Shown one piece after another: positions 20,331-50,082 of a DNA stretch of 64,000 bases. Positions within the stretch are counted from its first letter, which is position 1. Every line of letters starts with the position of its first letter. The notes beneath the pieces are model-generated. The model worked only from the letters and a program-made list of their open reading frames with translations, made no database searches and had not been told where the DNA came from. Origin of the DNA: Spirogloea muscicola (taxonomy: Eukaryota > Streptophyta > Zygnematophyceae > Spirogloeales > Spirogloeaceae); NCBI GenBank assembly GCA_009602725.1, contig WELB01000139.1:234525-298524 (forward strand), read 5' to 3'. A program made the position numbers and the translations under genes.

Positions 20331-21819
20331 TCACAGGAGAATCTTGCGAGAAGAAGCGCCAGCGTGCTGCCCAGCACGTCTAGTGGTGGTTTTGGTGGTG
20401 CCAAAGCGCGAGAACTTGCAGTCGGTCGCCAGGAGGCCGGATGTGAGGTAGTCCTCGGGTTCGCCGTCGAGGTAGCCATTGCCGTCGGGGCCGGCGACCT
20501 GCCAGACCTGGAGCAGCGGGCTCCACTCGCGCACGTATGCAAAGTGGCGATCCTTCTGGTCGGCCCGGAACGTCTGGCCGAGCACGCCGTGGGGGTTGGA
20601 CGACAGGCCCACGGCTGACACCATGTCCACGGAGAAGTGCACGTATGCATCTGCCGCAGTGCGCAGGTCGGGGACCTCGGGCCGCAGCTTGAGCACCAGG
20701 TCTGCGACGCCCACGACGGAGAGCTCGTAGCGGTCGACGTCGTCGTCGCCGTCCAGGCCGTGGCCAAGGAAGGTGAGCGCCACTGCTGCATCGCGAGTCA
20801 CGAAGCGCTCGCCCTCGGCGAGGCGCACGGCGCGGCCGTCGACGTGGATTGAGTGCATGTAGCCTGCGCCGCGCTCGGGCTCGGCGCCGCCTCGCGCCGC
20901 CAGGACGACAGTGTGGTTGTCGGACAGCACACCGAGCTGCTTGATCCACGAGTACGTGGTGCGGCCTTCAACGCGGCCATCCAGATGCATGTTCACCTGC
21001 AGCCTCTCGTCCGTCACCATGCAGTAGTCGTTTCCGGGCGCGCCTGCAGGAGAGCAAGCAGGACGCGGCAACCAGTCAGCCACATGTTCTTTCGTCGTCG
21101 CGCAGATTATCAATAATCTCAGGCAGCTCAAATCACGTCTGTGCGTTTCCATGAATTTGTAAGCATGTATGATGTTGGTGAAGTGCTCCAAATGACAGGC
21201 CGAGCAGGACGCCAGGTTGCAGCACTGCACATAGAGAGCGTATTGGTGCGTAGAGCTCACCAGTGAAGTCGAAAGCGACAGAGTCGGCGCCGGTGAAGTG
21301 GGGGTCGCCCTTGATGCCGGCACCCTTGCACTTGGTGGAGTCCAGAGACGCGGGCTTGAGGCAGAATGGCCCGACGTTGTACTGCTGCTCCCTGTTACAG
21401 TTGCCGCTGGAGTCCTGAATGTTGTCACCCGTTGTATCGCCGTTGTTGCACGAGCCCACGACGGAGCACGAGGAGCCGGCGGGCGCGGACACCAGCTTGA
21501 CGAAGCAGCCCTGGAACTTGGGCAGGAACGGTGCCAGAAAGTCGAAGAGGACCTCGAAGTAGCCATTGGAGTCCGTGGTGGCGGTGTAGACGGTGGAGGT
21601 CTTGGCGCCGTTGACGAGGCAGTAGGACTGCACGGTGGCGCCCTTGACGTAGGCGTCGCCCTGGCTGGCGTTGTACACGCCCGTCCAGCAGGTGTTGCGG
21701 AAGACGACGCCGGAGCCGTACCAGGTGGCGGTGGCGGGCGCGGCGCCCAGCGCCAGGACCAGCGCCGCGGCCAGCAGCAGCGCGGCGGCGGCGTTCGGGG
21801 CGACGGTGGTGGCGGCCAT
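20331..21819 (-). CDS. Array copy A: secreted Ole e 1-like / root-cap-like protein
   Basis: Two exons (21261-21819 and 20331-21043, one 217-bp phase-1 intron) give 423 aa. A hydrophobic N-terminal signal peptide (LLLAAALVLALGAAPATA) is followed by a Cys-rich domain of the pollen Ole e 1 type: VVFRNTC, a GATVQSYC strand, TDSNGYFEV, GCFVKLVSAP. The usual CxxC first cysteine of the other copies (CNTC) is Arg here. The second half begins GDPHFTGADSVAFDF and continues as a root-cap/LEA-related domain (PF06830-like): DERLQVNMHLDGRV, YSWIKQLGVL, HGVLGQTFR, and YLTSGLL.TDCKFSRF near the end. Family knowledge: such proteins are extracellular or wall proteins of plants; the exact role is unknown, so a wall or matrix role here is inference. 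Start is the ATG opening the signal peptide. Confidence 0.88.
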
Positions 21820-22180
21820 GGCGGGCTTCGCGGCTGTGCTGCAGCTGCGGGCCGGGGTGGGCTGGGGGGGGCTGGCGGGGGAGCTGGTCTGGTGTTTGGG
21901 GGGCGAGGGGGGGGGGGGGCTTATCTATTGGGGCCCCACCGGCCCGCCAGCAGCGCCAGGGTCCCTGCCAGCCGGGCCGGATCACGCTGGGCAGGGTGTA
22001 CTAGCACCAAGCCCCGGGCCCGGGCAGCAGGATCTCGTCCGATTTGCTGCGTCGCCCCTGGACGTTCCCGGAAGACGACGCGCGGGGGCGGGACAGCCCC
22101 CTGGCTCTGCCGTAGCCCCTGGCTGCCATTGGCCGCCGCTGCTGGCGCCAGGGGGCTGGCTGGGAGTGCAAGGCTCCACG
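21820..22180 (-). promoter_or_regulatory. Upstream region of copy A
   Basis: GC-rich leader with a poly-G tract at 21865-21920. In the minus sense a TAGATAAG word (about 21925) sits in the place of GTAGATAAAGG before copy G, a candidate core promoter element. Confidence 0.35.
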
Positions 22181-22199
22181 ACCACGCTCCTTGCTTTTT

Positions 22200-22915
22200 G
22201 CTTGATTGTTCCTTTTGGGCGCCTTCTCTCTACGGGCTGGCCAGTCAATTTGGAAACGCTTTTCTTGGGCTGGCCCACAGCCATTGCCTCACATCGACAT
22301 CTGTTTCTTTCCTTGTTGGCAATAAGACTATGGACGGGCTTTCGTTGGTGGCAGAAGGGCTTAAGATCTGCCGTTCAGTATCGGACAAACGATTAGCGAC
22401 TTCTACTTGCTGGCCCGTCGTCAGTGGGCGGGTCGGCGTAGCAGCGGGTATGTACATTCTACGGATGTGCTTGCCTCGATACTCGGCCACTCAGCCCCTC
22501 CATCAATCAGAAGAGGCTCTATGGCTGCTGCCTCCGGGTCTAGGCGGAGTGCCATTTTCCCGGCTGCGAGTTACTCGGACTTGCTGCTGCTCACCTGTGG
22601 GTACTAAGCTTTCCTTTGCGTCGTCTCGTGTCTAGCTGTGTAGCTTTCCTTTTCGGCACCTTGTTTGGCTCTTTGGATTTTGTCCATTCTGTTTTGGGCT
22701 GGCTTTGCCAGCCCCTCTTCTCTATGGGCGAGCAATTTTTTTCCTGCTTTGCAGCAGGCCTCTCAGCGTCACTTCGATCCTGCTTCTACTGCTGTTTGAA
22801 AGAGAAGTTGTTCTTTTACATGGGACGTTGGCTGAGAAAGGCCAGCCCGAGAATCGTTGACAAGGTCCGCAGGGGCCGGAGAGCACCAATCAAACTGCTG
22901 GGCAATTGGCTATGA
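22200..22915 (+). mobile_element. LINE tails and hairpins
   Basis: Frame ASGSRRSAIFPAASYSDLLLLT.GY with stop at 22605-22607, then a 3' UTR closing with hairpin GGGCTGGCTTTGCCAGCCCC and ATGGGCGAGC at 22695-22735. An opposite-strand hairpin lies at 22835-22885. Confidence 0.65.
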
Positions 22916-22979
22916 CGAATGAGTGCTCAATGACCCCTACTCTACAGCCGCAGGTCGAAGTAGCTAGCTGCTCAAAAGT

Positions 22980-23150
22980 GGCGCCACGTCAAAAAGCAGA
23001 AGCAGCAGCTGAAATGCGGCTTCCCACAGATGCACGGCAAGTGCCTGGGTGCGCAGGAGCGAGACTGAGAGACGCATTTGGCACACTAAGTCAGTGACCT
23101 GGCGCATTAAGGCCGGGCTTCTCGCCCTGCTGCCTTGACGCTTGTGACGC
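22980..23150 (-). mobile_element. LINE C-terminal fragment, frameshifted
   Basis: Minus frame reads QMRLSVSLLRTQALAVHL, clearly the MRLSVSLQR.QALALH segment of the LINE C-terminus, then loses frame. Confidence 0.6.
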
Positions 23151-24560
23151 AAATGGGCGGGGTGACGAAGGGTGCTCAGTAGTCATCCTCCCTTCTCTCG
23201 GCATAGAGCCATGATGCCCGGGACGACGCTACTGCTGCGGGTAGGTCGGTTGCTCAGGACAAAATTGAAGCCGGAGAGTCTGCCTCGGCACAAATGGTGG
23301 CACTCAAAAAAAAAAAAGTTGGATTGACCAAGCTTTCGGCCGTTGCAGCAGCTCATTCTTCCATGGCCAGCAGGACGTACTTCATATTTCACGCCAACAG
23401 TCCCAAGTCCTCACGCACCACAATCGTCTAGAGTGCTTGCCAGCAGAGCCAGCGGGGTCCTTCCCTGTGTGACACTCTCTGCAGCTCTCGACGATATGGT
23501 GCACCTTGAGCCGCGTCCTTGGCGATTGGTGTAAGAGTGATAACCCAAGCACGCAAGCGCAGTCTAAGGACGGGGTATGGGAAAGGGACTGACAATGGCC
23601 TCAAAGCAGCTATGCAGAGCCACTCTTTGGTGGCTCGATACATTTATGTCGACGATGATCTGGAAGCTCGAGGGGCTGCCCAACATCTCATCATCCTCCA
23701 GAAGTGAAATCATACACTTTTCAAAGACTCTGTCTTTGCGCAGTGGGACACTCATGTTCCCAGGATGTTCGAAAAGCAGCTCACCCTGGATAGTCAACGC
23801 AACTTGCGTCTGTGGAACTTCTGGTGACCGGCTTCCTGTGTCAGGCTTTCAGCCGCATGGGTCCGGGTAGAGGGTTCAAGGATTCAAATACAACGCTTTT
23901 GTAAGCCGTGTGCAATGTCTCTATGCGCGGCACGTGCAGTCACGCTCATTGGGATACATCATCGAGAATGTGGAGCACGTCGAAAACAGTCCATAGCCAG
24001 GTTTGATTTGAATACACTCTGTTCGGTCCAATTGCCAAGCTAGCTGCAGCATTTCTTGGTTCCCTGGCCTGATCGCAACTTACGAGTTGCTCTTGCAGCT
24101 GTGTATAGACCGTCAACGCTGATTTCGGCACCAATTTGCTTATATGGCATCAGAACCTGGCCGCAAAGGCATCCCACTTGACCAGAGGTTCAACAGGGAT
24201 CATGCTTCTCTCAGCCAGGAAGGCAGACTAGTGTGCGTTACTTTGGCCGAGAAGACTTCTCTCTTGCAATGAGATCTTGGCAATCCGGGACTCACATTTG
24301 CGACTGCTCTTCCTAGATGTGGATCGGACTAGAGTTGATCTGCACTGATGTTGACTATGTATGGACTGAGATTGAGTCGACCTGGACTGGACCCAAGTGA
24401 GACTGATCAAGGACTGCATATCATTGTATTGCTCTTGTTGTGGACGGGCTCTTCATTAACCCCGTCAACGGCCACGATAGCTTTAGTACAACTGGCTTAG
24501 CTCAATGAGCGTGAACGTCAACGACCACTAGCAGAAGAATTGAAGCTATTCCAAAGGAAG
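23151..24560. other. Unassigned stretch
   Basis: AT-richer, with short open frames on both strands and no recognised protein. Includes an 11-A run at 23308-23318 and a weak primer-binding-like word (GGCATCAGAACCTGG, about 24147-24161) that is not enough to call an LTR element. Confidence 0.3.
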
Positions 24561-25200
24561 AAAGACTCTTCCAGTAGAGGGCGATGGCTGTGATTGGCCA
24601 GCCCAGGAAAAAGGACAACATGCGAAGGCGCCAGAAAGCAGCGCTGGAGCATACAGCGACTTAAGTGGCCACTCTTCCAAGGGGCAGGGGCTGTGAAAAG
24701 CCGGCCAAGAAAGAATGAACAAGGTCCAAAAAGCCGAAAACTTCTCAGCTATGCACGAGACTACAATGGGAGCTTAAGACCCCCGAGTAAGCAGGCGCAA
24801 GTCGGAGTGACTTGCAGCTAGAATAGAGCCACCCCGAGGTGACCCAGAAGTAGCAGCCAAAGCGCGGCCTGCCCGCAAGTGCACTGCGTGAGCCAGTGTA
24901 CGTTGGATGGAAATGGATAGCCGCATGCGGAAGAACTGGGCAGCGGAGCCGCGAAGGATAGAGTCCACAGCAGGAAGGAAGGAAGCAGTGAGGGCTGTGG
25001 ACAGTCAGCCTATTTAATGATGAACAAGGCCCAAATGAGCCAGAAAGCGAAGCGACCAGCGGTCACCTCCGTCGCCATTGCCAGTGCCAGCAGCACGCTG
25101 TCTCGTGCCACAATTCCGCTTTGCGTCGTTCTCCTTGTCCATTCCTTTGGGCTGGCCTCTTCACAGCCACCAGTCAATTTGGCCGCGCAATTCTCCGCTT
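24560..25200. mobile_element. Facing LINE tails and hairpins
   Basis: Minus frame 24968-24774 reads FFRMRLSISIQRTLAHAVHL, RAGRALAATSG and ends SHSDLRLLTRGS with stop, a LINE C-terminus. Hairpin units are at 24575-24620 and 24680-24715 (minus sense) and at 25148-25190 (plus sense, followed by CACCAGTCAATTTGGCCGCG). Confidence 0.65.
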
Positions 25201-26499: not shown

Positions 26500-27964
26500 T
26501 TAGACGAGCATCTTGCGAGAGGTCACAGTGGCATGCTGGCCAGCGTGGTGGGTAGCAGCTTTGGCAGCTCCAAAGCGCGAGAACTTGCAGTCGACAGCAA
26601 GGAGATTGGAGGTGGAGTAGTCCTCAGGAACACCGTCGAGGTAGCCGTAGCCATTGGGGCCGGCGACCTGCCAGACCTGGAGCAGCGGGCTCCACTCGCG
26701 CACATATGCAAAGTGGCGGTCCTTCTGGTTTGCCCGGAATGTCTGGCCAAGCACGCCGTGGGGGTTGGATGACAGTCCAACGGCAGACACCATGTTCACA
26801 GAGAAATGCACGTACGCGTCCACGTCAGTGCGCAGGTCGGGGACCTCGGGCCGCAATTTGAGCACCAGATCTACGACGCCCACGACGGAGACCTCGTAGC
26901 GGTCCACATCGTCATCGCCGTCCAGGCCGTGGCCGAGGAAGGTGAGCGCCAATGCTGCGTCGCGAGTCACGAAGCGCTCGCCCACGGCGAGGCGCACGGC
27001 GCGGCCGTCGACGTGGATGGATTGCATGTAGCCTGCGCCGCGCTCGGGCTCGGCGCCGCCTCGCGCTGCCAGGACGACAGTGTGGCCGTCGGACAGCACA
27101 CCGAGCTGCTTGATCCACGAGTACGTGTTGGGGCCCTCGACACGGCCGTCCAGGTGCATATTCACCTGCAGCCTCTCGTCCGTCACCATACAGTAGTCAT
27201 TGCCAGGCGTCCCTGCAGGAGAGTAAGCAGGACAGGGCAACCAGTCAGAGGTTTGCTTACACCACATGGTCCGTGAAGGCATGAAATGTCGTCTCAGCAG
27301 ATGAAACAATTTCTGTATGTCTCCATGGATGTTTGTGCACACATGCCGCACTACTGCCACTGAATAACAGGCCGAGTGTACGCGACATTGCAGCACTGCA
27401 GAAAAAGAGGGTCAGTGAGTGGCTCTCACCGGTAAAATCGAAAGCAATGGAGTCTGCGCCGGTAAAGTGGGGGTCGCCCTTGACGCTGGCACCCTTGCAC
27501 TTGGTGGTATCTAGCGCTGTGGGCTTAAGGCAGAAGGGCCCGACGCTGTACTGCTGCTCCTTGTTGCAGTTACCGTTGGAGTCCTGGATCGTGTTGCCCG
27601 TGTCGCCGTTGCTGCACGAGCCTATGACGGAGCAGGACGAGCCGGAGGGCGCGGACACCAGCTTGACGAAGCAGCCCTGGAACTTGGGCAGGAACGGCGC
27701 CAGAAAGTCGAAGAGGACCTCGAAGTAGCCATTGGAGTCCGTGGTGGCGGTGTAGGTGGTGGCGGTCTTGGCGCCGTCGACGAGGCAGTAGGACTGCACC
27801 GTGGCGCCCTTGACGTAGGCGTCGCCCTGGCTGGCGTTGTACGCGCCCGTCCAGCAGGTGTTGCAGAAGACGACGCCGGAGCCGAACCAGGTCGCGGCGG
27901 CGGGCGCGGCGCCCAGCGCCAGCACCAGCGCCGCGGCCAGCAGCAGCGCGGCGGCGGCGGCCAT
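26500..27964 (-). CDS. Array copy B: secreted Ole e 1-like / root-cap-like protein
   Basis: Exons 27430-27964 and 26500-27212 around a 217-bp phase-1 intron; 415 aa. Same plan as copy A: signal peptide (MAAAAALLLAAALVLALGAA), Cys-rich Ole e 1-like domain with the full CNTC pair, GDPHFTGADSIAFDF at the exon junction, root-cap-like second half with YSWIKQLGVLSDG, HGVLGQTFR and a diverged YSTSNLLAVDCKFSRF. It ends SRKMLV, as copy G does. The frame is open far upstream into GC-rich leader, but the ATG before the hydrophobic core is taken because all full copies start there. Confidence 0.88.
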
Positions 27965-29347: not shown

Positions 29348-30791
29348 CTAGATGAGCATCTTGCGGGAGAAGCCATTGGCATGCTTGCCAGCGCGGTGGG
29401 CGGCGGTCTCGCCGAATCGCGAAAATTTGCAGTCGCTGGCGAGGAGGCCAGAGGTGAGGTAGTCCTCGGGAGCACCGTCGAGGTAACCGTTGCCATCTGG
29501 GCCGGCGACCTGCCAGACCTGGAGCAGCGGGCTCCACTCACGCACATACGCAAAGTGGCGGTCCTTTTGGTCCGCACGGAATGTCTGACCGAGCACGCCG
29601 TGAGGGTTGGACGACAGGCCCACGGCGGATACCATGTCCACGGAGAAGTGCACGTACGCGTCTGCCTCGGTGCGCAGCTCAGGGACCTCGGGCCGCAGCT
29701 TGAGCACCAGCGCAGCAACGCCCAAGATGGAGAGCTCATAACGGTCTACGTCGTCATCACCGTCCAGGCCATGGCCGAGGAAGGTGAGCGCTACTGCTGC
29801 GTCGCGCGTCACAAAGCGCTCGCCCTCGGCGAGGCGCACGGCGCGGCCGTCGATGTCGATGGAGTGCATGTAGCCTGTGCCCCGCTCGGGCTCGGCACCG
29901 CCACGTGCTGCCAGGACGACAGTATGGCTACCGGAGAGCACGCCGAGCTGCTTGATCCAAGAGTACGTGTTGGAGCCCTCGATGCGGCCGTCCAGGTGCA
30001 TGTTCACCTGCAGCCTCTCGTCCGTCACCATGCAGTAATCTTTACCGGGCGAGCCTGAGAAGAGGAGGCACAGGATATCGACCAATCAGATTTCTGCTGT
30101 CTCAGGGTCCAAGCAGGTACAAATTAAGAATGTCTGATGAAATACGCCTGTACTTCCACATGTACATACCTGCAAATGCTATCCAATCGCCGAAAAGGCA
30201 GGCGAGCCAAGTTGCAGCATTGCTCCAAAAGAGAGGGGCCGGTGTGAGCAGCTCACCAGTGAAGTCGAAGGCGACGGAGTCGGCGCCGGTGAAGTGGGGG
30301 TCGCCCTTGACGCCGGCGCCCTTGCACTTGGTGGAGTCCAGCGCTGCGGGCTTGAGGCAGAAGGGCCCGACGCTGTACTGCTGCTCCTTGTTGCAGTTGC
30401 CGCTGGAGTCCTGGATGTTGTCGCCCGTGTCGCCGTTGTTGCACGTGCCCACGACGGAGCAGGACGAGCCGGAGGGCGCGGACACCAGCTTGACGAAGCA
30501 GCCCTGGAACTTGGGCAGGAACGGCGCCAGGAAGTCGAAGAGGACCTCGAAGTAGCCGTTGGAGTCCGTTGTGGCGGTGTAGGAGGTGGCGGTCTTGGCG
30601 CCGTTGACGAGGCAGTAGGACTGCACCGTGGCGCCCTTGACGTAGGCGTCGCCCTGGCTGGCGTTGTACGCGCCCGTCCAGCAGGTGTTGCAGAAGACGA
30701 CGCCGGAGCCGTACCAGGTGGCGGCGGCGGGCGCGGCGCCCAGCGCCAGCGCCAGCGCCGCGGCCAGCAGCAGCGGCGCGGCGGCGGCCAT
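29348..30791 (-). CDS. Array copy C: secreted Ole e 1-like / root-cap-like protein
   Basis: Exons 30257-30791 and 29348-30054, intron 202 bp, phase 1; 413 aa. Signal peptide MAAAAPLLLAAALALALGAA; Ole e 1-like domain with VVFCNTCWTG, TDSNGYFEVLFDF, GCFVKLVSAPSGSSC; GDPHFTGADSVAFDFTG at the junction; second half with DERLQVNMHLDGRI, YSWIKQLGVLSG, HGVLGQTFR and YLTSGLLASDCKFSRF. The last exon is slightly shorter than the 713 bp of the other copies because of small deletions near the C-terminus (GETAAHRAGKHANG), a change shared with copy D at sequence level. Closest to D, in line with the paralogous spacers. Confidence 0.88.
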
Positions 30792-32110
30792 GGGGGCGGG
30801 CTGAGAAGGTAGCGCGCGAGCTGGGCCGGGCTGGGCTGGCCTGGCCGGGCTACCGGGACGGGCAGCTGCTGGTCGATGGGAGCTGGGAGAGGGGGGGTTT
30901 GGCGCCCTTTTCTAGGCCGCCGGGCCCCCGCCTGCCCCCTGGCCCCCTGCCTGCTGCGCCAAGGGCGCCTGGCCAGGCGCGCACAGCGCCCTGCGGGCAG
31001 CATGGACGGGGCCGCCGTCCTGCACCGCGGCCTGGCTCGACCCGCTCCCGCAAGACGACGCGCCACCAAGATCCGGCTCTTGCACGTGCCGCCATGCCAG
31101 AGCCCCTGGCTCTGCTGGCTTTGCCCGGGGCCAGGCCCCGCCGCATGTGCCTGCCCGGCGTCTGTTCGGGGCGGCACGTTCTGGGCAAGATGGGCGGGCG
31201 CAGGACCTCGCCCAGCTTCTCGACCCTTTAACCCGTGTAGCCGGAGGAAGCAGGCTCAAGGGTTCAGGGTCGTAACACCATGGCCGTGATAGCTTATGAT
31301 ACTGCCAACGGAGACTTGGCTTGGAGTTGCTTCGGAGACGGTGACAGTGGGGTCCAGCAGGATGAATATGCTTCGGACTGCTTGCATTGCTACCATGCTT
31401 ACATCGACCAAAGCCAGCTTGCTCATGTCTTGAAGGACTCTCTACTACTTTGTCCTCCTGGATACGACTGCCTCATAAGTGCTCTCCTATTATATCTCAT
31501 CAACACCAATCTTCTGCAGACGAGCTGACAAGAATCTGCAGCCTCTGAGCTTGAAGCTTGAAGGGGGGGGTGGGGTACAAGGGGGGGTGGGGTACGACAT
31601 TACCATCTCAACCTGCAAGTCTTAGCCTGCTTCAACTCTTAGACAACAAACATGACAACACTGAGCTACCCAGATGAAATGTACGACTTCGATGTAAAAT
31701 ACCATGAAGACCCTTGGGCAGAGGAGGTTTGAACCAGAAAACGTTGGGGCCGAGATGGGCGATGGCACATCCTACCTCGACACAGGGATGAGACCTGGGT
31801 CCCAAAGGACAAGGCTGGCAGCACAGGTGACTGATTGTGAAGGCATCAGAATGCAATGGCGGACCTCCAGCAGCCAGAAGGTGTTTGATCCAATGGCGCT
31901 ACTGGGCCTAAGGGAGCTCACATCAAGACACAAAGAATCACTCATACACCACTTAAGTCTACACTAAATAAGTGCAGCTGTAGCCAGACGCTGACAGGAG
32001 GACGGTGCAGGCGGGCACTGTGCTCCGGTCCGCGCGAGGCTACTGGGCGGCATTCTGGCAATGTGAACAGCCTAGCAGGCGTGCAGCGCCATCAAAAGTG
32101 GCTAATCTCG
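30792..32110. repeat. Spacer C-D, paralogous to spacer B-C
   Basis: See spacer B-C. Contains a G-rich tract at 31562-31594 matching 28799-28828, and the presumed copy C promoter next to 30791. No gene seen. Confidence 0.85.
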
Positions 32111-33210
32111 TCAGAGCGAGATGAGCATCTTGCGGGAGAAGCCATTGGCATGCTTGCCAGCGCGGTGGGCGGCGGTCTCGCCGAATCGCGAAAACTTGCA
32201 GTCGCTGGCGAGGAGGCCAGAGGTGAGGTAGTCCTCGGGAGCACCGTCGAGGTAACCGTCGCCATCCGGGCCAGCGACCTGCCAGACCTGGAGCAGCGGG
32301 CTCCACTCACGCACGTACGCAAAGTGGCGGTCCTTTTGGTCCGCACGGAATGTCTGACCGAGCACGCCGTGAGGGTTGGACGACAGGCCCATGGCGGACA
32401 CCATGTCCACGGAGAAGTGTACGTACGCGTCTGCCTCGGTGCGCAGCTCAGGGACCTCGGGCCGCAGCTTGAGCACCAACGCAGCAACGCCCAAGATGGA
32501 GAGCTCATAGCGGTCCACATCGTCATCGCCGTCCAGGCCGTGGCCGAGGAAGGTGAGCGCCAATGCTGCGTCGCGAGTCAAGAACCGCTCGCCCTCGGCG
32601 AGGCGCACGGCGCGGCCGTCGACGTGGATGGAGTGCATGTAGCCTGCGCCGCGCTCGGGCTCGGCGCCACCTCGCGCCGCCAGGATGACACTGTGGCCGT
32701 CGGACAGCACACCGAGCTGCTTGATCCACGAGTACGTGTTGGGACCCTCGACACGGCCGTCCAGGTGCATATTCACCTGCAGCCTCTCGTCCGTCACCAT
32801 GCAGTAATCTTTACCGGGCGAGCCTGAGGAGAGCAGGCACAGGACATCGACCCGTCAGATTTCTGCTGTCTCAGGGTCCGAGCAGTTACTAATGCCGAGT
32901 CTCTGATGAAATACGCCTGTACTTCTACATGTACATACCTGCACATGTAGAAGTAAAGAGCAGGCAAGCCAAGTTGCGGACATTGCTCCAAAAGAGAGGG
33001 GCCGGTGTGTGGAGCTCACCAGTGAAGTCGAAGGCGACGGAGTCGGCGCCGGTAAAGTGGGGGTCGCCCTTGACGCCGGCGCCCTTGCACTTGGTGGAGT
33101 CCAGCGCCGCGGGCTTGAGGCAGAAGGGCCCGACGCTGTACTGCTGCTCCTTGTTGCAGTTGCCGTTGGAGTCCTGAATGTTGTCGCCCGTGTCGCCGTT
33201 GTTGCAAGTG
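32111..33210 (-). pseudogene. Array copy D: 5'-truncated by an assembly join
   Basis: The second exon (32111-32823) is intact and ends SRKMLISL; the intron is 32824-33019 (196 bp). The first exon runs from 33020 to 33210 only, keeping the C-terminal part (NKEQQYSVGPFCLKP to VAFDFTG) and stopping at the N at 33211. About 344 bases of exon 1 with the signal peptide and most of the Ole e 1-like domain are missing. Whether the gene is truly broken or only cut by the assembly cannot be told here. Confidence 0.8.
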
Positions 33211-33211
33211 N
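33211..33211. other. Single-N assembly join between inverted copies D and E
   Basis: The sequence jumps within one base from a minus-strand exon 1 of copy D to a plus-strand exon 2 of copy E. Confidence 0.9.
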
Positions 33212-33415
33212 GTGCGTGAGTGGAGCCCGCTGCTCCAGGTCTGGCAGGTTGCCGGCCCCAACGGCTATGGCTTCCTCGACGGCGCGCCAGAGGACTACCT
33301 CACCTCTGGCCTTCTCGCTGCTGACTGCAAATTCTCGCGTTTTGGCGCCACCAAGGCTGCCGCACACCACGCAGGCCAGCGCGCCGCTGTGTCTTCCCGC
33401 AAGATGCTCGCTTAG
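33212..33415 (+). pseudogene. Array copy E: last 67 codons only
   Basis: Reads REWSPLLQVWQVAGPNGYGF, YLTSGLLAADCKFSRFGAT and SRKMLA with stop at 33413-33415. It matches copy F from 41514 on without indels. Everything upstream is absent at the N. Confidence 0.85.
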
Positions 33416-35430: not shown

Positions 35431-35435
35431 GACAC

Positions 35436-36442: not shown

Positions 36443-36650
36443 GCTAGGGGACCCACTTTCAGGACCCTAGCCTCTCTGATTTGCGGCTGCTTAGCAGGGG
36501 TTACTGAGTGATTTGTAGCTGCTTTCTTTCTTTGTGTGCTTTGTTTCTTAGCGCTTCCTCTGGCCCCCTTCTCGTACTTTCTTCATTCTTTCTTGGGCTG
36601 GCTTTTCCAGCCCCTATCCTCAATGGGCGAGCCCTTCTTCTTCCTCTTTC
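36443..36650 (+). mobile_element. LINE 3' tail with terminal hairpin
   Basis: Starts GGGACCCACTTTCAGGACC, passes LSDLRLLSRGY-coding sequence (CTGATTTGCGGCTGCTTAGC) and ends with hairpin GGGCTGGCTTTTCCAGCCCC and ATGGGCGAGCCCTTCTTC. Nearly the same block is inserted upstream of copy F (39886-40067). Confidence 0.75.
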
Positions 36651-37735: not shown

Positions 37736-37737
37736 GA

Positions 37738-39165
37738 AGAAGTGGCACTCCCAATGGGGGCAAGGGCTGCGAAAAGCCAGCCCAAAAAGAATTCACAAAG
37801 GTTCAGAGGGGCCTAAGAGCGGTGAGCAGCTACAAAGGGGCCTGAGGATGCAATGGTAAAACAGGGGGAGGATGGATCGCTCAATAAGTACGAGTGAGGA
37901 GCCTAAGATCCGACAGACTAGCAGCCGGGAAGCTATCACCCTGACGAAAGCCAGAGCCCGCAGCGAGAGCACGGCCAGCTCGCAGATGCAGAGCGTGGGC
38001 CATGGACCGCTGCAGGGATACAGAGAGGCGCATCCGATATACCTGAGCCCACGAGCCCGCGGCGTTGAAGTCGGCTGGCTCGCGGCGTCTGCGGGACACA
38101 GCCCGCCGCGCAAGCCTAGCCAATAGGTCAAGCCACTGGGACCCAAGAGCCCCGTGCACGTCCACCGCCAAGCGGACGAACTCGTCGGCAGTGGGTGGTC
38201 GGAGTGCTTGGCCGCCTTGCAGCGAGCGGCCTTCGAGGCAGCGTGGCCGGCCCGCGAGGCAGAGAGCCCCAGGTTGGAGCGGTCGACCACATCGGTGGTG
38301 ACTACATCGGCTATGATCCGCGCGCCACCTCCCGGCGTGGACGCCACCAGGTCCACACGACGCGTATGGTGTCCGTCAGCCCTCTCGAGGATGGGCATGA
38401 CCGAGGCGTTCTCCATCCTGGAAAGGCAGCGAGCCAGTCGCCACCTCCTCCACAACCTGCTGCAGCAGGGGCCGCCCATCATGGAGGAAGCGCTGCGCCA
38501 CCGACGTGGCGACCTGTGCCCAACTGCCGAGGAATGCTGGCCTGCAGACGCGCGCGAGCGAGCGGCAGCCGAGGCCGCCCTGGCCAGGGGGCAGTGTGGC
38601 CTGGAGCGTAGCGGCTGACGAGGCAAGGAAGCCATCGTGGCGGATGAGGGCCGCCGCGCCCTCCATGACCCCCGCGTCGATTGTGGTGTAGGCCGCCAGC
38701 ACCGCGGGGCAGGGAGGGGTCGTCCGCGCCAAGTAGTGAGGACGCTGCACAATGCATCGATTGAGCATGGCAAGCGCCAGCTGCATGTCCTGCAGCTCGG
38801 GGAGGCGGGCCACTGGCTGGAGGTGCTCCTGAAGGCGGACGCGCAGTTGCCCGTCGACGAACGCTGGCGTGCCGAACGGGACCCCAAGGATGGTGAGGCC
38901 GCTTGGGGGAGTTTGGCACCCAGGCGGCAGGGGCAAGGCGGCAGGGAGGACATGCGGCGACCACGCGGTACACTTCTCCGGGCGGATGGTCATGCCAAAG
39001 GCGGCCAGCTGCTGCTGGAAGGTGACGGTGGCTGCCGAGACGTCCCCCGGGCTGCCGACGAGCGTGGTGTCGTCGGCGTAGGACGGCAGAAGGACGCCGG
39101 GGTGCGCCGCCGCGGTGGCCCTGAGAGCGCGGCTGTGAGCCAGCGCGAGAAGGGGCCAGGGAAAG
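37738..39165 (-). mobile_element. LINE with reverse transcriptase and endonuclease-like C-terminus, decayed
   Basis: The longest copy in the window. The minus frame 39203-38376 carries the RT catalytic block SYADDTTLVG (39066-39083), then LAAFGMTIRPEKC and a thumb-like region. A frameshift near 38390 leads to RADGHHTRRVDLVASTPGGG, ARIIADVVTTDVVDRS and KAARCKAAKHSDHPLP, where spaced D, D and K resemble a restriction-like (PD-D/ExK) endonuclease. A second shift near 38180 leads to LAVDVHGALGSQWLDLLARL, QVYRMRLSVSLQRSMAHALH and the end LSDLRLLTRTY (stop 37881-37883). The 3' UTR closes with hairpin GGGCTGGCTTTTCGCAGCCC (about 37773-37792). 5'-truncated just before the YADD motif, where it abuts another tail. 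Confidence 0.8.
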
Positions 39166-39420
39166 CTCTGAAGCACACAGTGAATCAAGTAGCCACGACG
39201 CACTCAGTAACCTTCTGTCGCCATTCGGCTCTTCTTGACCTTGTCCATTCCTTTTGGGCTGGCTTCTCCCAGCCACCAGTCAATTCGGCCGCGCTTTTCC
39301 CCCTTCTGTTGAGCGGCCGCAGGTCGGAGAAACTAGTCTCCAGGTAGCGAGTAGCATCGCCGAAGAGGAGAAGGGGCCGCCCATTGAGGATAGGGGCTGG
39401 AAAAGCCAGCCCAAAAAAGA
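39166..39420. repeat. Joined LINE tail ends, opposite orientations
   Basis: Minus-sense LINE 3' sequence (rc of CACTCAGTAACC) meets a plus-sense hairpin unit (GGGCTGGCTTCTCCCAGCC, CACCAGTCAATTCGGCCGCG, 39257-39295) and a minus-sense unit at 39370-39415. No gene. Confidence 0.6.
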
Positions 39421-39489
39421 ATGACCACAGTACAAAGAGCCGAAGAGGGGCTTTCCTTCTTGCTGTTTGCCATGAGAAAGAATCAACTA

Positions 39490-40236: not shown

Positions 40237-41717
40237 ATGGCCGCCGCCGCCGCGCCCCGCGCCGCCGCCTCGCTGCTGCTGGCCGCGGCGCTGGCTCTGG
40301 CGCTGGGCGCCGCTCCCGCCGCCGCGACCTGGTACGGCTCCGGCGTCGTCTTCTGCAACACCTGCTGGACGGGCGCGTACAACGCCAGCCAGGGCGACGC
40401 CTACGTCAAGGGCGCCACGGTGCAGTCCTACTGCCTCGTCAACGGCGCCAAGACCGCCACCACCTACACCGCCACCACGGACTCCAATGGCTACTTCGAG
40501 GTCCTCTTCGACTTTCTGGCACCGTTCCTGCCCAAGTTCCAGGGCTGCTTCGTCAAGCTGGTGTCCGCGCCCGCCGGCTCCTCGTGCTCCGTCGTGGGCT
40601 CGTGCAACAACGGCGATACAACGGGTGACAACATTCAGGACTCCAGCGGCAACTGTAACAAGGAGCAGCAGTACAATGTCGGGCCCTTCTGCCTCAAGCC
40701 CGCAGCGCTGGACTCCACCAAGTGCAAGGGCGCTGGCGTCAAGGGCGACCCCCACTTTACCGGCGCGGATTCCGTCGCCTTCGACTTCACCGGTGAGCTT
40801 CGCGCACCGACCCTCTCCTCTGGGCGCTGTGCTGCGCATTGGTGTCCTGCTTTACTTGTGATCGGTGTTGGTGCGTCCGGACATGTGAGTATGACTTCAT
40901 GAAATACGTGCAGAAGTGATTGATGTACTGACTTGAACACGTTTGCAGACACCGAGACAATGCAAACGTCTGGCCGATCACCTGTCCTGCTTGCTCTCCT
41001 GCAGGCGCGCCTGGGAATGACTACTGCATGGTGACGGACGAGAGGCTGCAGGTGAACATGCACCTGGACGGCCGCGTCGAGGGCCCCACCACGTACTCGT
41101 GGATCAAGCAGCTGGGCGTGGTCTTTGACGGCCACACGGTCGTCCTCGCGGCGCGCAACGGCGCCGAGCCTGAGCGCGGCGCGGGCTACATGCGCTCCAT
41201 CCACGTCGACGACCGCGCTGTGCGCCTTGCCGAGGGCGAGCGCTTTGTGACGCGCGACGCCGCTTTGGCACTCACCTTCCTCGGCCATGGCCTGGACGGT
41301 GACGACGACGTCGACCGCTACGAGCTCTCCGTCGTGGGCGTCGCGGACCTGGTGCTCAAGCTGCGGCCCGAGGTCCCTGAGCTCCGCACCGAGCTGGATG
41401 CGTACGTGCACTTCTCCGTGGACATGGTGTCAGCCGTGGGCCTGTCGTCCAACCCCCACGGCGTGCTCGGCCAGACGTTCCGGGTCGACCAGAAGGACCG
41501 CCACTTCGCATATGTGCGTGAGTGGAGCCCGCTGCTCCAGGTCTGGCAGGTTGCCGGCCCCAACGGCTATGGCTTCCTCGACGGCGCGCCAGAGGACTAC
41601 CTCACCTCCGGCCTTCTCGCTGCTGACTGCAAGTTCTCGCGTTTCAGCGCCACCAAGGCTGCCGCTCACCATGCAGGCCAGCGCGCCGCTGTCTCTTCCC
41701 GCAAGATGCTCTCTTAG
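40237..41717 (+). CDS. Array copy F: secreted Ole e 1-like / root-cap-like protein
   Basis: Exons 40237-40792 and 41005-41717, intron 212 bp, phase 1; 422 aa. Residues 1-30 form the signal peptide (SLLLAAALALALGAAPAAA). The Ole e 1-like domain spans about 31-160: VVFCNTCWTGAYNASQGDAY, QSYCLVNG, TDSNGYFEVLFDF, GCFVKLVSAPAGSSC, then CNNGD and NCNKEQQ. GDPHFTGADSVAFDF starts at about residue 170. The root-cap-like domain fills about 190-400 with DERLQVNMHLDGRV, YSWIKQLGVVFDG, HVHFSVDMVSAVGLS-type strand, HGVLGQTFR and YLTSGLLAADCKFSRF. One N-glycosylation sequon (NAS) is kept in all copies. Intact, though its upstream region is split by a LINE tail. Confidence 0.9.
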
Positions 41718-42935: not shown

Positions 42936-44600
42936 TTGCATTGGAGTAACCTGCCGCCAGTGTCTCCTGCAGCTATTAAGCGCGCTGCAACCACAAGTTG
43001 CTTACCAAATGCCGGGGTCCCAACTGCGTCTTCGTACAACAAGCACGAGGTCGCATCATTCAGTAGGCATGCTACGTGGCGAAGGCATTCGGGTGAACTT
43101 CAGTTAGCCTTCCATTGGCCTCTCAAGAGCCGACATCATAAGCTTAGTCTGAGCAGGAGCTCTTCATTTGCAGCTTCAGTTGTACTTCTTGACGGCCAAA
43201 ATGTTCCCCTGCGACTAAGACCCACGGTGCTGCTGAGATGGGTTTACAAGCGGCACCGATCTTTCTGCTGCTGCCTATTGCTACCTGAGTACTCGTACAG
43301 GCCTTGCTCACAGTGCTGGCCTTGATTGCAAGATTGATGGTAGACGCATGCAATTGATATGATCGTACCACAATATGTGCGAGCTGATACACTTGGTCTC
43401 TCATGTGACAGTTGTAGCACCTGGAACTCGTAACAGAAGCACACGTCGAAATAAGAGGTTGCTGGTCGAGCTAAGTGCATTGGCACAAGCGAGTTAGGTG
43501 AAGCAGGCAGGCGTACAAGCCTGATCGTAAGGCAAAGCGCCTCAGCCTGCACACTGTGTTCATGTGGTGGGCACAGATAGGCGTACAAGCTTAAGCTTCT
43601 ATAGTTCCTACAGCAGATTGCTATAAGGCAAGTGGCCATTACAATAAGCAAGAGAAGGAATAGCATCGAAAGCGAGCTGCGGCAGAGCACCTTAGCTAAG
43701 TGGACGTGTTTTGTGTTTCTTATTATCTTTTTTCAACATTAACTATTTCAGGACTTGTGAAAGCAGATTGGTCTTCAGCTGTGCTTGAGCTGAGGTGAGC
43801 ACACTGGCGTTTGTGGCAAAGGCTGGTGAGATGTAGCTGCAGCTGGGGGCACAAGCGTGTGTCAGGTCCAGCTAGCAGTCGCTAGTAAGCAGAAGAATTC
43901 GAGCGATGAACGACGTAAAGGGCCACTGGGACCCCTCAGTCTGGCCTCCTGCTCTAAACAGCAAGTGATAGCTGGATGTGCCGCAGGGCGTTGTGACATG
44001 CCCGTGTAACGTGCAATGGTCCAAGGAGAGGACAGGGTGGCTTACCAGGGTGTGGACAGGACTCTCCGAAGAGGTTTCTTTATCCACTCGGCTCCTGCTG
44101 ATTATGCTCATAAACCAAAGCAGTGGCCATTACACGGTCTGACCCCCTAAATCAGTGAGCTGGGAGCCGATATAGTGCGGGCGACCAGAGTCGGGCGCCC
44201 CTTTTCCATGTGGATGTAATTGACTTTGTGCTAAAGTTCCTCCCGTTTACTCCCTCCTGTTACTCAATTTGTCATGGTCGATCTACCAAATCCGCATCTA
44301 GGCACTGAGCCGCGGTCGCCGGTCGTCCCTGGCGCTCCGATCCAGTCCGGCCAGTCCGTCGCCGGCTTGTCGCTTTCGCGGCGTGGAAGAAGCTCTATGG
44401 AAGAGAAGCTCAGTAAAGAGGAGGAGGATGGCTGTGAAAGGCCAGCCCAACAGAGAGCATGGGAAGTGGCGGCAGAGGGTCGTCAGTTGAGGGTGGCCCT
44501 CGTGGGCATCATCCTCGTGCTCCGGCGCCCGTCCGGCGCGAGGAGCGAACCCCAAGCAAAATCTTAAAGCCCTTCATACCTTGACAACAGCTAAGGTCTG
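42936..44600. other. Unassigned; one hairpin unit
   Basis: No conserved protein recognised in 1.6 kb. A minus-sense hairpin unit (GGCTGTGAAAGGCCAGCCC) is at 44430-44448. Confidence 0.4.
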
Positions 44601-44614
44601 AACTCCTTTCTTGT

Positions 44615-44905
44615 CAGAGGTCAATGGCCCGTGCGCTGCACCTGCGTGCCGGCCGAGCCCTCGCTGCTGCCTCTGGCTCTGGCCAGGGGACGTCCTTCCA
44701 GGAACATAGCCTCTCTGACCTGAGACTGCTTAGCAGGGGTTACTGAGTAGTTCGTAGCTGCTTTGTTTCTTCTTGTGCGCTTCTTTCTTAGTGCTTCGCC
44801 TTGGTGCTTCGCCTGGCCCCCTTCTTCTTGGGCTTCTTGTACTCTGCTCATTCTTTTTTGGGCTGGCTGTTCCAGCCCCTATCCTCAATGGGCGAGCTCT
44901 TTCTT
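44615..44905 (+). mobile_element. LINE 3' tail, ends at single N
   Basis: Frame SMARALHLRAGRALAAASGS, then SFQEHSLSDLRLLSRGY with stop at 44743-44745; hairpin GGGCTGGCTGTTCCAGCCCC and ATGGGCGAGCTCTTTCTT at 44860-44905, meeting the N at 44906. Confidence 0.75.
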
Positions 44906-44906
44906 N
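44906..44906. other. Single-N assembly join
   Basis: Separates a LINE tail from the 3' part of 5.8S rRNA. Confidence 0.9.
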
Positions 44907-45050
44907 GGTATGCCCTCGGCCGAGGCCTCGGGCGCAATTTGCGTTCAAAGATTCGATGATTCACGGAATTCTGCAATTCACACTACGTATCGCATTTCGC
45001 TGCGTTCTTCATCGTTGCGAGAGCCAAGATATCCGTTGTTGAGAGTTGTA
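44907..45050 (-). rRNA. 5.8S rRNA, 3' end cut
   Basis: In the minus sense it reads the conserved ACAACTCTCAACAACGGATA, CGATGAAGAACGCAGCGAAA, TGTGAATTGCAGAATTCCGT and TTGAACGCAAATTGCGCCCG. About 144 of roughly 155 nt are present; the end is lost at the N, and ITS2 and 28S are absent. Confidence 0.95.
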
Positions 45051-45464
45051 CTGGGGTTTCACGCGGTCGGCCCCCTCGGGGAGCGTCTCGCAATCGCTTC
45101 ATCTGGTTGGCAGGGTTGGTTTGTGGTTGGGTCAAGTAGCCCCGGGGATGGGCCGGGGACGGCCCCGGAGGGCGCCCAGGTCCTCCCAAGGGGAGGGAAG
45201 TGGGGCGCCGCTCCGACGTCGACGCGACGGCCGACCCGAGTCGCACCGCCGAGCCGCGCGCCGAAGCGACGACAGTGGCGCCCACTTGGCGCCCGCGCCA
45301 CCAGCTCTCCCGCCTGTCGACGGCGGGCCGTGCCGCGTCACCGACGGTGAGGCGTCACGGGTCTGAGAAGCGCCGGCAGCCGCACCTTCCGATGCAGCCC
45401 CTCGGCAGACAGAATGAGTTCGCTGGGTTTGCCACCGACACAAGCGGGTAGCTTGATGTGTGTC
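45051..45464 (-). other. ITS1
   Basis: About 414-bp GC-rich spacer between the 18S 3' end and 5.8S. Confidence 0.9.
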
Positions 45465-46105
45465 AATGATCCTTCCGCAGGTTCACCTACGGAACGGTGA
45501 AAAGCTCTGCGGCATCGCGTCTCTCGTGCTTTCGCGTCTCGCCCGTCTCCGGGCGAGCCCGACTATATCTTAGGCACACCCCCCCGCCACCGGCAGGGGA
45601 GAGAGCACCCATCGCCATCTAGTCTGTGAACCGGTCATCCATTCGCCGCAGCGCGCTCGACGCTGCGGCGGGCAGGACCCGGCTGCGGATCGCCCATCGT
45701 CCCACGCGGTGGTGGGATGCATCTCCGACGTTGTCACCATACCCGAGGTCGTTAGCCTGGCCACCACGCCCTTTCGGGCCGCCGCTTGGTAGTCGGAGCT
45801 TCAGGGAGTCCCCGCAGTTTGACGATGTCGCCCCGCCCACGGCATGTCAGCCATGGATCGGGACCAGCGCTTCGGCCCGGCCATTCTTTTTCACGACGCG
45901 TGAGTCGCGGCCGGACACCCTTTCGGGCCGCTCAAGGCTTCGGTACGTGAAGGCTGGGAAGGATCCCTCGCGCCGCGTCATAAAGTACCCGGCAACCTTG
46001 TTACGACTTCTCCTTCCTCTAAACGATAAGGTTCAATGAACTTCTCACAGCGTCACCAGCGGCGAACCACCGGCGTCGCCGCGATCCGAAAACTTCACCG
46101 GATCG

Positions 46106-46153
<48 letters not shown>

Positions 46154-46154
46154 A

Positions 46155-46202
<48 letters not shown>

Positions 46203-46509
46203 TTAATAATTGCAATAATCTATCCCCATCACGATGAAATTTCAAAAGATTACCCGGACCTTTCGGCCCAGGTTATAAACTCATAGAATTCATCAGTGTA
46301 GCGCGCGTGCGGCCCAGAACATCTAAGGGCATCACAGACCTGTTATTGCCTCAAACTTCCATCGGCTAGACGCCGATAGTCCCTCTAAGAAGTTGGCCAG
46401 GAAGGAGAACCTTCGTGTAACTAGTTAGCAGGCTGAGGTCTGGTTCGTTAACGGAATTAACCAGACAAATCACTCCACCAACTAAGAACGGCCATGCACC
46501 ACCACCCAT
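45465..46509 (-). rRNA. 18S rRNA, 3' third only, with group I intron
   Basis: Exons 45995-46509 (515 nt) and 45465-45494 (30 nt). The minus sense starts ATGGGTGGTGGTGCATGGCC and includes ATTAACGGAATTAACC complement words, GGTGTGTACAAAG complement, GTCGTAACAAGG and the 3' end CGTAGGTGAACCTGCGGAAG, GATCATT. At 46510 the match to 18S stops abruptly and repeat-like sequence follows, so about 70% of the gene is missing at the 5' side. Either an orphan rDNA fragment in the array or an assembly chimera. Confidence 0.93.
45495..45994 (-). other. Group I (IC1-type) intron at 18S site S1506
   Basis: A 500-nt insert sits after AACAAGGT and before TTCCGTAGG, which is position 1506 in E. coli numbering. 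It begins with T and ends with G as group I introns do. Core elements in order in the minus sense: P/Q as AAACTGCGGGGACTCCC, R as TTCACAGACTAGATGGC, S as AAGATATAGTCGGGC. No homing-endonuclease frame fits in it. Self-splicing rRNA introns at this site are common in green algae. Confidence 0.92.
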
Positions 46510-47169
46510 TCGGAAAAGCCCACTTCTTCTACTTCCAATGCTAACCCCACAGAACCTGCAGAAGACCAGGTATAGCTATAGCCCTGACGAGAATCGATTA
46601 TAGCCCAGACGGCGGCCCCGTTCCGTCAAGACACGACTGGCAAGTGAGGCCGCAGGCACGCTTTGCGGCAGCCGGGGCGAAGTGTGGATTCACAAGCACA
46701 GGGGCCCAGAGCACAAGCTCCGACAACCGAACTCCTGGCGCGATCCGACCCGGGCCGCCGCGAGGGGCCTGACCTACTCGTCCGGCCTATCAGTCCAGGC
46801 GCAATCGGCCGCCCGGAAGTGCAGGTAGGCAGTGCAGCAAGCGGCTCCTGGCGCAGCACAGGGACGGCAGAATCAGCGCAGTGCCAGGAAAGCCGGCGCG
46901 CCGGCTTTGGAGGACGTCCGGGTCGGATACGGCAAGTCACAACATGGGAGCCGTCGGCCAGGCGGGATTCGGTTGCCTCGTCCTGGTCGGCCAGAGGTCT
47001 CGCACATGGGAGGGAGCTTCTGCTGGCTTCAGGTGCCGACGGCGCCGGTAGATAAAGGCAAACCAGCTCCCACAACCCAGCCTCGTCCAGCGACTCCCTC
47101 CCCCAGCCCCCCCAGTCGACCAGTCCCCCAGCAGCCGCAGCCCGCCTCTCTGCTCTCACGACGGCAGCC
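46510..47169 (+). promoter_or_regulatory. Upstream region of copy G
   Basis: From about 46605 this matches the region before copy F but lacks the LINE tail. GTAGATAAAGG at 47048-47058, about 115 bases before the ATG, is a TATA-like candidate. Confidence 0.55.
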
Positions 47170-48643
47170 ATGGCCGCCGCCGCCGCGCCCCGCGCCGCCG
47201 CCTCGCTGCTGCTGGCCGCGGCGCTGGCTCTGGCGCTGGGCGCCGCGCCCGCCTCCGCCACCTGGTTCGGCTCCGGCGTCGTCTTCTGCAACACCTGCTG
47301 GACCGGCACGTACAACGCCAGCCAGGGCGACGCCTACGTCAAGGGCGCCACGGTGCAGTCCTACTGCCTCGTCAATGGCGCCAAGACCGCCACCACCTAC
47401 ACCGCCACCACAGACTCCAATGGCTACTTCGAGGTCCTCTTCGACTTTCTGGCGCCGTTCCTGCCCAAGTTCCAGGGCTGCTTCGTCAAGCTGGTGTCCG
47501 CGCCCTCCGGCTCCTCGTGCTCCGTCATAGGCTCGTGCAGCAACGGCGACACGACGGGAGACAACATCCAGGACTCCAGCGGCAACTGTAACAAGGAGCA
47601 GCAGTACAATGTCGGGCCCTTCTGCCTCAAGCCCGCCGCGCTGGACTCCACCAAGTGCAAGGGTGCCGGCGTCAAGGGCGACCCTCACTTCACTGGCGCC
47701 GACTCTGTCGCCTTTGACTTCACCGGTGAGCTTCACGGGCCAAACCACTCTACTACGCGCTTTGCTGCACCTGCCATCCTGCTCGCCTGTTGATAAGCGG
47801 CAATGCAATGACAGATGTGCATACACGTTCATGATAAGTATAGGACGCGGTTTATCGGCTCTTACCTGCACACACATTTGAGTGGAGCAACCTCGCTGAC
47901 TTATCGCCGTCTTTGGTTGCTCTCCTGCAGGTGCGCCCGGTAAGGACTACTGCATGGTCACAGACGAGCGACTGCAGGTGAACATGCACCTGGACGGCCG
48001 CGTGGAGGGCCCCAACACGTACTCGTGGATCAAGCAACTCGGCGTGCTCTCCGGAGGCCACACCGTCGTCATGGCGGCACGCAACGGCGCTGAGCCCGAG
48101 CGCGGCATGGGCTACATGCGCTCCATTCACGTCGACGGGCACACCGTGCGCCTTGCCGAGGGCGAGCGCTTTGTGACGCGCGATGCTGCTTTGGCGCTCA
48201 CCTTCCTCGGCCATGGCCTGGACGGTGATGACGACGTCGACCGCTACGAGCTCTCCGTTGTGGGCGTCGCGGACCTGGTGCTCAAGCTGCGGCCCGAGGT
48301 CCCGGAGCTCCGCACCGAGCTGGATGCGTATGTGCACTTCTCCGTGGACATGGTGTCAGCCGTGGGCCTGTCGTCCAACCCCCACGGCGTGCTCGGCCAG
48401 ACGTTCCGGGCCGACCAGAAGGATCGCCACTTTGCCTACGTGCGCGAGTGGAGCCCGCTGCTCCAGGTCTGGCAGGTCGCTGGACCTGATGGGGAGGGCT
48501 ATCTCGATGGTGCACCTGAGGACTACCTCACCTCCGACCTCCTCGCTTCCGACTGCAAGTTCTCGCGCTTTGGCGCCGCTGAGGCCGCCACCCGCCACAC
48601 TGGCCAGCGTGCCGCCGTTTCCTCCCGTAAGATGCTCGTTTAG
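47170..48643 (+). CDS. Array copy G: secreted Ole e 1-like / root-cap-like protein
   Basis: Exons 47170-47725 and 47931-48643, intron 205 bp, phase 1; 422 aa. Signal peptide as in F, ending APASA; Ole e 1-like domain with VVFCNTCWTGTYNASQGDAY, TDSNGYFEVLFDF, GCFVKLVSAPSGSSC; GDPHFTGADSVAFDF at the junction; second half with GKDYCMVTDERLQVNM, YSWIKQLGVLSGG, HGVLGQTFR and YLTSDLLASDCKFSRF, ending SRKMLV. Its upstream region is the only plus-strand one not split by a retroelement. Confidence 0.9.

Positions 48644-50031: not shown

Positions 50032-50082
<51 letters not shown>

Follow-up and report, generated by a model that had tools for sequence, protein, structure and literature searches.

The gene array

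The 64,000-nucleotide stretch of Spirogloea muscicola contig WELB01000139.1 analyzed here (the window, in whose numbering positions are given) carries a tandem family of genes, in two orientations, whose products join a hydrophobic leader, an Ole e 1 domain, the sequence GDPHFTGADS(V/I)AFDFTG and a root-cap ("DPH") domain, in that order. We conclude that this is a real, conserved, secreted-type fusion family and, as far as we have checked, a new architecture made from two known plant families. The contig bearing the array is called C139 below; loci elsewhere in the same genome are designated by contig (C40, C55 and so on) or by an L number (for example, L047).

Five intact two-exon genes (copies 1, 2, 3, 6 and 7), encoding proteins of 413-423 amino acids, are accompanied by copy 4, which is cut short at an N, and by copy 5, a 3' stub; copies 1-4 lie on the minus strand, and copies 5-7 on the plus strand. 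The seven copies or part copies counted in the initial annotation are thus all present, although copies 4 and 5 do not count as separate genes. Copy 1 (20331..21819, minus strand, 423 amino acids) has a first exon (21819..21261) that encodes the leader, an Ole e 1 domain without its first cysteine and GDPHFTGADSVAFDFT, and a second exon (21043..20331) that encodes the root-cap/DPH domain. At residue 41 (21697-21699) Arg (CGC) replaces that cysteine, which the homeologues of copy 1 on C40 and C55 retain. Copy 2 (26500..27964, minus strand; exons 27964..27430 and 27212..26500; 415 amino acids) and copy 3 (29348..30791, minus strand; exons 30791..30257 and 30054..29348; 413 amino acids) share the architecture of copy 1. 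Copy 4 (32111..33209, minus strand) retains a partial exon 1 (33209..33020) and exon 2 (32823..32111) while missing its 5' end; a single N at 33211 marks the head-to-head junction between it and copy 5 (33212..33415, plus strand), the 3' end of an exon 2 (VREWSPLLQVWQVAGPNGYG through to SSRKMLA) with a root-cap match at C139:267733-267873. Copy 6 (40237..41717; exons 40237..40792 and 41005..41717) and copy 7 (47170..48643; exons 47170..47725 and 47931..48643), both on the plus strand, each encode 422 amino acids. In all six copies that show an intron, it is 196-217 nucleotides long, GT-AG and phase 1, and it interrupts the identical codon (FDFT/G).

The layout of the protein is best followed in copy 7. 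Its leader (47170..47262, approximately residues 1-31) reaches a peak 15-residue Kyte-Doolittle mean of 2.28, and past residue 31 no 19-residue mean exceeds 1.13. Of the signal peptide proposed in the initial annotation, a strong hydrophobic leader stands, seen by hydropathy, and a cleavable signal peptide is putative. The Ole e 1 (PF01190) domain follows at 47275..47550 (residues 36-127), and GDPHFTGADSVAFDFT(G), at 47677..47725, forms the start of the DPH domain and a candidate Asp-Pro self-cleavage site, split by the intron after FDFT. Exon 2 (47931..48643) supplies the rest of the DPH/root-cap domain, in which HGVLGQTF and YLTSDLLASDCKF (PF06830) lie; its protein sequence is 87-90% identical to that of the other five copies.

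Two domains in one protein

We scanned the spliced copies 7 and 1, two of the five whole genes, with Pfam. Both matched PF01190 (Pollen_Ole_e_1; 46.6 and 38.7 bits, respectively, against a curated cutoff of 23) followed along the protein by PF06830 (Root_cap; 27.8 and 29.0 bits against a cutoff of 27, in two stretches), so the domain calls first made by eye are borne out by significant matches to both families. For the Ole e 1 half, a profile of six stretches from three groups, two of the stretches coming from the window, was compared with 177,635 distinct PDB sequences. The crystal structure of Pla l 1 (4z8w) ranked first (E 1.5e-9, profile positions 3-132) and Lig v 1 second (E 3.4e-4), the third match (E 1.5) being unrelated. 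Shallow profiles from the window copies alone retrieved no PDB relatives, and NCBIfam gave no match to exon 2 of copy 7. For the root-cap half, a Root_cap match was present in all eight members of a diverse set of DPH domains, and the window family has the DPH start, the C-terminal position and the streptophyte host of Root_cap/DPH proteins. The GDPH motif does not vary among the six window copies in which that stretch is visible. In alignment, the window group carries an insert in the PF06830 region relative to a second large group of the same genome, which bears GDPR instead.

The halves occupy different window exons ~200 nucleotides apart and might be taken for two neighboring genes or for two frames joined by chance, a reading that we reject as having next to no chance of being correct, given the common GT-AG phase-1 intron and paralogues that hold both domains in one frame. 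In the intronless paralogue L047, a single open frame of 605 amino acids matches both PF01190 (E 1.6e-6) and PF06830 (E 7e-10), demonstrating that the fusion is independent of gene model and splicing; likewise, L050 and L051 each have Ole e 1 and DPH stretches inside one frame. The fusion and the tandem expansion that the initial annotation described are supported.

Each half belongs to a family that has been described separately in land plants, the one in proteins of pollen and the cell wall and the other in root-cap proteins. Prochazkova and others (PMC10796529) named the DPH domain, reporting ~280 residues that run from DPH to the root-cap end, more than 2,100 database hits, all of them streptophyte, and a predicted beta-sandwich. 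What had been annotated as a GDPHF motif plus a separate root-cap domain is therefore one published domain. Nguyen-Kim and others (PMC7177597) defined PAC domains and listed four architectures, none with a root-cap partner, which agrees with the view in the initial annotation that land plants usually carry the two domains in separate proteins. Their survey mined five streptophyte algae, two of them zygnematophytes; the algal PAC-related sequences reported there are from two chlorophytes (predicted to be helical) together with a seven-cysteine candidate in Coleochaete, and bryophytes are named as the earliest bona fide PAC/Ole e 1 holders. In a literature search with most subscription journals outside its coverage, we found no paper linking Ole e 1 with Zygnematophyceae.

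Compared with land-plant Ole e 1/PAC proteins (PF01190; Pla l 1, AtAGP31), the window family is alike in its domain score, hydrophobic leader and richness in cysteine, and tandem copies of PAC genes are reported from grasses as well (PMC7177597). In contrast to those proteins, the algal form possesses a C-terminal DPH/root-cap domain, found in none of the four published PAC architectures, and nine cysteines before GDPH, and it occurs in an alga, whereas bona fide PAC proteins are described from bryophytes onward. With other streptophyte root-cap/DPH proteins (PF06830; the maize glycine-rich root-cap protein, Closterium, Ancylonema) it shares a GDPH/GDPR start, an HGVLGQTF-type motif, a C-terminal PF06830 stretch and membership of a large family in one genome; it differs from them in its N-terminal Ole e 1 domain and in the divergence of the window group. 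The same fusion may be present, unremarked, in databases of other algae or plants.

Some observations count against these assignments. PF06830 exceeds its cutoff only narrowly in copies 7 and 1, the nine cysteines preceding GDPH depart from the six that strictly define a PAC domain, and AlphaFold models of both halves, for the six window copies, were poor (mean predicted local distance difference test scores of 30 and 35, the latter for the Ole e 1 half). Counting homeologues with the window copies, 13 genes of this group are complete; 12 of them have nine cysteines before GDPH and two after it, and copy 1 has eight and two, while by eye paralogue L047 has six from VYC to ATC. Since nine and two make an odd total, one cysteine could be free for an intermolecular bond.

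The family across the genome

The genome scanned comprises 153 Mb in 471 contigs. It contains 92 fragment matches to PF03514 (GRAS), a family that occurs in zygnematophytes and land plants and is not known in chlorophytes; the algal host supposed in the initial annotation is supported by inference. At E≤1e-3 there were 34 PF01190 matches, every one of them 130-485 nucleotides upstream of a DPH/root-cap match on the same strand. Relaxing the threshold to E≤10 gave 36 of 38 matches upstream of DPH, the two exceptions (C174:94993, E 0.046; C116:291486, E 0.65) being below cutoff; this search scored first-look candidates exon by exon, and a diverged or intron-split stand-alone gene could escape it. 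The genome's own Ole e 1 profile revealed extra heads upstream of DPH at C27, C236 and C81 (E 3e-12 to 4e-15) and at C309 (E 2.6e-5). Altogether, an Ole e 1 head is present at at least 40 of 76 listed DPH loci, the list comprising matches that cover the domain start and the upstream DNA having been examined for part of the loci. A pattern search for the GD motif misses some DPH loci.

Other DPH loci have different N-termini. At C83, C164 and C279 (L038, L039, L041, L042, L044) a leader is followed by a short Gly- or Pro-rich stretch, reminiscent of the maize glycine-rich root-cap protein, and at C93 the N-terminus differs again, the scanned frame matching no Pfam family at E≤0.01. Because its N-terminal partners vary in this way, the DPH domain is, on the evidence of these gene contexts, a shared C-terminal module. 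"Giant" frames beside DPH matches, of up to 9425 amino acids, were discarded as products of runs of N in L041, L045 and L080, the three loci checked.

The motif at the domain start divides the family. GDPH is found in the window group and in the groups related to it, located at C11/C26/C18, C83/C164 and C279. GDPR characterizes the second large group, which we take to be the one most like land-plant root-cap proteins and which is 26% identical to the window group; its exceptions are C46:490916 (GDPH), L050 (GNPR) and L051 (without GD). In a DPH tree of 18 rows, whose root is unsettled and 10 of whose 15 inner branches are weakly supported, the longest inner branch (99/100) sets the window group and its allies apart from the GDPR group and a C15 row. 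Members with an Ole e 1 head are found to either side of this deepest split, suggesting that the fused form is probably old. We dropped a rooted order of gain and loss for the head, the branch to the bacterial outgroup being far too long and those 10 inner branches open.

That outgroup is the one bacterial relative among 124 pattern matches in prokaryote genomes; the 53 pattern matches in viral contigs included no relative. The bacterial locus (L077:2023-3645, from a Thiothrix metagenome-assembled genome) encodes a protein in which a GDPHF domain accompanies a bacterial Ig domain and a long Pro/Thr-rich stretch. The GDPHF domain starts with KGDPHFVGADGGKYDVQG, and its best segment, which spans residues 6-190 of the query, is 26% identical to the algal domain (E 2e-9 for the set of candidate stretches); the Ig domain and the Pro/Thr-rich stretch set it apart from algal DPH proteins. 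At E≤10, L077 matched neither Root_cap nor VWD in Pfam. It is possibly a bacterial relative of the plant root-cap domain, to judge by this alignment.

The S. muscicola genome is reportedly triplicated, and the family loci occur in threes (C139/C40/C55; C47/C66/C46; C11/C26/C18). In the homeologue comparison, which covered 18 of 19 loci (C40_c, which the splice pattern used did not match, was left out) and yielded complete genes for 13 of the 18, the best partners of exon 2 of copies 1, 2, 3, 6 and 7 were on C40 and C55, at 93.9-97.3% identity. Partners across three contigs suggest that five gene types predate the triplication, with later local changes such as three copy 6-like genes on C55. 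Among 14 chosen pairs (exon 1 scored in 12 of them and exon 2 in all 14), the ratio of nonsynonymous to synonymous substitution rates (dN/dS) was 0.03-0.36, indicating purifying selection. In five tandem paralogue pairs, dS in exon 1 (0.15-0.22) was ~one-half to one-third of that in exon 2 (0.40-0.53), whereas homeologue pairs displayed no such gap between the exons. Since the low exon 1 values are confined to the paralogue pairs, we suggest that gene conversion homogenizes exon 1, the Ole e 1 half, among tandem copies.

We also considered whether assembly had inflated the copy number by stacking haplotypes or homeologues in one contig. Consistent with this, the block at 30677-33210, in which copy 4 lies, matches contig C40 (L023) at 99.92% identity across 2534 bp, right up to the N at which it ends, and further single Ns lie at 44906 and 50083. 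Near-identity of this order makes it probable that copies 4 and 5 arose by chimeric assembly or by a very recent conversion, and we take five genes plus remains as the safe count. As an account of the array as a whole, inflation is quite improbable: copies 1, 2, 3, 6 and 7 have their own partners on both other contigs, at the identities given above, and the five genes are, on that comparison, probably real.

Several other features were observed in the window. Unresolved bases consist of a run of 719 Ns (14922-15640), through which open frames of 339-466 amino acids pass at 14.3-15.9 kb, and of the single Ns at 33211, 44906 and 50083; these are possibly joins. The last lies in a CT-rich simple repeat (50043-50123) that reads as Ser-Leu repeats in open frames. 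Dispersed repeats of 95 nucleotides (family D10, at 22643, 36542, 37518, 39969 and 44807) and 60 nucleotides (family D13, at 22822, 24681, 36250, 37285, 37757 and 39386) surround the genes and share a GGGCTGG..CCAGCCC-like core; families D15 and D16 resemble them. An open frame on the minus strand (38376-39203), located between copies 5 and 6, matches RVT_1 at E 7.2e-4 and 19.8 bits, under the cutoff of 29.6, and is perhaps a retroelement remnant within the array.

VWD likeness and proposed function

The GDPH motif is also that of von Willebrand D (VWD) domains, such as those of mucins, in which it is cleaved between Asp and Pro, mutation of the Asp or His stopping or inhibiting cleavage; it occurs as well in VWD-like domains of ITIH proteins that are not annotated as VWD (PMC10880436). 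The six window copies that include this stretch all have the Asp and His that an autocatalytic GDPH needs. By its residues, the algal GDPH is the same motif as the VWD self-cleavage motif, and its cleavage is putative. With the GDPH-containing VWD domains (FCGBP, MUC2, MUC5AC, RGMB; ITIH), the algal domain shares GDPH-F...DG..F.F.G at the domain start; VWD proteins are extracellular, and the algal family is of secreted type.

We asked how far this likeness extends. Among eight diverse DPH domains compared with Pfam, four matched VWD (E≤10, best 0.085) and four ITI_HC_C (best 0.071); in a second set, three of eight matched VWD (best 0.029). A profile of the eight domains compared with PDB placed FCGBP, a mucus protein with many VWD domains, first (E 1.8e-4 and 0.0042), the next match being unrelated (E 0.1), and a broader profile that included the bacterial relative did so more clearly (E 2.1e-6 and 1.7e-4; next match, 0.36). 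In hhalign, the eight DPH domains scored 29.5 over 21 columns against seven VWD domains, exceeding all 200 column shuffles (maximum 26.65) and a reversed VWD control (16.1). With a larger set of 110 DPH pieces from 59 of 81 loci, one of them the bacterial row, the score rose to 31.4 over 97 columns, collinear, exceeding all 120 shuffles (maximum 19.95); the controls scored 14.5 (reversed DPH), 12.6 (Ole e 1 against VWD) and 19.4 (DPH against Ole e 1). Removing the GDPH...FDFTG signature from both sides left a score of 22.09 over 53 columns, ~4 standard deviations over the shuffle mean and reached by none of 150 shuffles (maximum 21.23).

Other results argue against a VWD assignment. On copy 7, Pfam VWD (PF00094) scored 12.5 bits (E 0.18), under its cutoff of 22.9, and a PF00094 scan of the genome at E≤1, in itself uninformative, gave no match. 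The E-values for FCGBP sum several domains, the best single-domain values printed being 11, 23 and 27. The probabilities assigned by hhalign itself were 21% (eight domains), 31% (110 pieces) and 3% (signature-free). The CGLCGN cysteines are absent, the DPH family having GVLGQ(T/S)(F/Y) or GALGQMF at the place compared, a site beyond the reach of the profile alignment. Pfam showed no C8 or TIL match in copies 7 and 1, and we found no paper joining root cap, VWD and plant, most subscription journals being outside the coverage of that search. Given the sub-cutoff Pfam scores, the low hhalign probabilities, the empty VWD scan and the missing CGLCG cysteines, we do not file DPH as VWD; the profile comparisons suggest that it may work like a VWD domain.

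What might such proteins do? We lean, with a little better than even confidence, toward secreted two-domain wall or mucilage proteins acting as cross-linkers of a pectin-rich mucilage or wall. On this reading the protein would leave the cell. Its Ole e 1 (PAC-like) head would bind pectic polysaccharide or O-glycans, a role proposed for AtAGP31, and its DPH domain, as a VWD-like beta-sandwich, would mediate assembly, so that the two together could cross-link the matrix. Where GDPH is present, autocatalytic cleavage of the Asp-Pro bond may take place on the way through the secretory pathway and give two disulfide-held chains, which for copy 7 have calculated masses of 14.6 kDa (Ole e 1 head) and 27.4 kDa (DPH tail). 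Ole e 1/PAC proteins are cell-wall proteins whose PAC domain is assumed to bind pectin and O-glycans (PMC7177597), and a gel-like mucilage is reported in zygnematophytes (PMC10762512).

An alternative is that these are stress or cold proteins in which the DPH beta-sandwich serves as a chaperone-like or oligomerizing module, a role suggested for the Ancylonema ice-binding protein and the wheat DPR genes, and Ole e 1 as a stabilizing head. The published DPH domain is joined to an ice-binding domain in an Ancylonema ice-binding protein, and three wheat genes with DPR, which grasses have in place of DPH, show cold-linked peaks (PMC10796529). We regard this alternative as unlikely: neither copy 7 nor copy 1 has a Pfam match to an ice-binding domain, Ole e 1/PAC proteins belong to the cell wall, as noted above, and the analogy to small heat-shock proteins was proposed by its own authors without direct evidence (PMC10796529).

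Land-plant Ole e 1 proteins are best known from pollen. Together with an array copy number that varies between homeologous contigs, this might point to a role in cell recognition or adhesion during conjugation, the duplicated surface-protein array resembling those of reproductive surface proteins. The whole-exon dN/dS values of the scored pairs give no sign of diversifying selection, however, and we consider such a role improbable.

The cross-linker reading can be carried further, to a proposal that we put forward tentatively and think rather doubtful. If DPH were a VWD domain, akin to the one from which animal mucus is built, and GDPH self-cleaved during secretion, the protein would be a disulfide-held, pectin-binding, mucin-like cross-linker; land plants would have inherited the module, many with GDPR replacing GDPH, and would have split off its head, thereby founding the pollen Ole e 1/PAC family.

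Taken together, these findings reveal an Ole e 1 domain in many copies in the probable sister lineage of land plants, with each copy at E≤1e-3 tied to a root-cap domain. Their joining in one protein suggests that both domains may already have acted jointly in the extracellular space when neither pollen nor roots yet existed. The secreted domains of pollen and root-cap type may have started as one algal extracellular protein. If DPH is indeed VWD-like and self-cleaving, then plant root mucilage and animal mucus would have a common building block.

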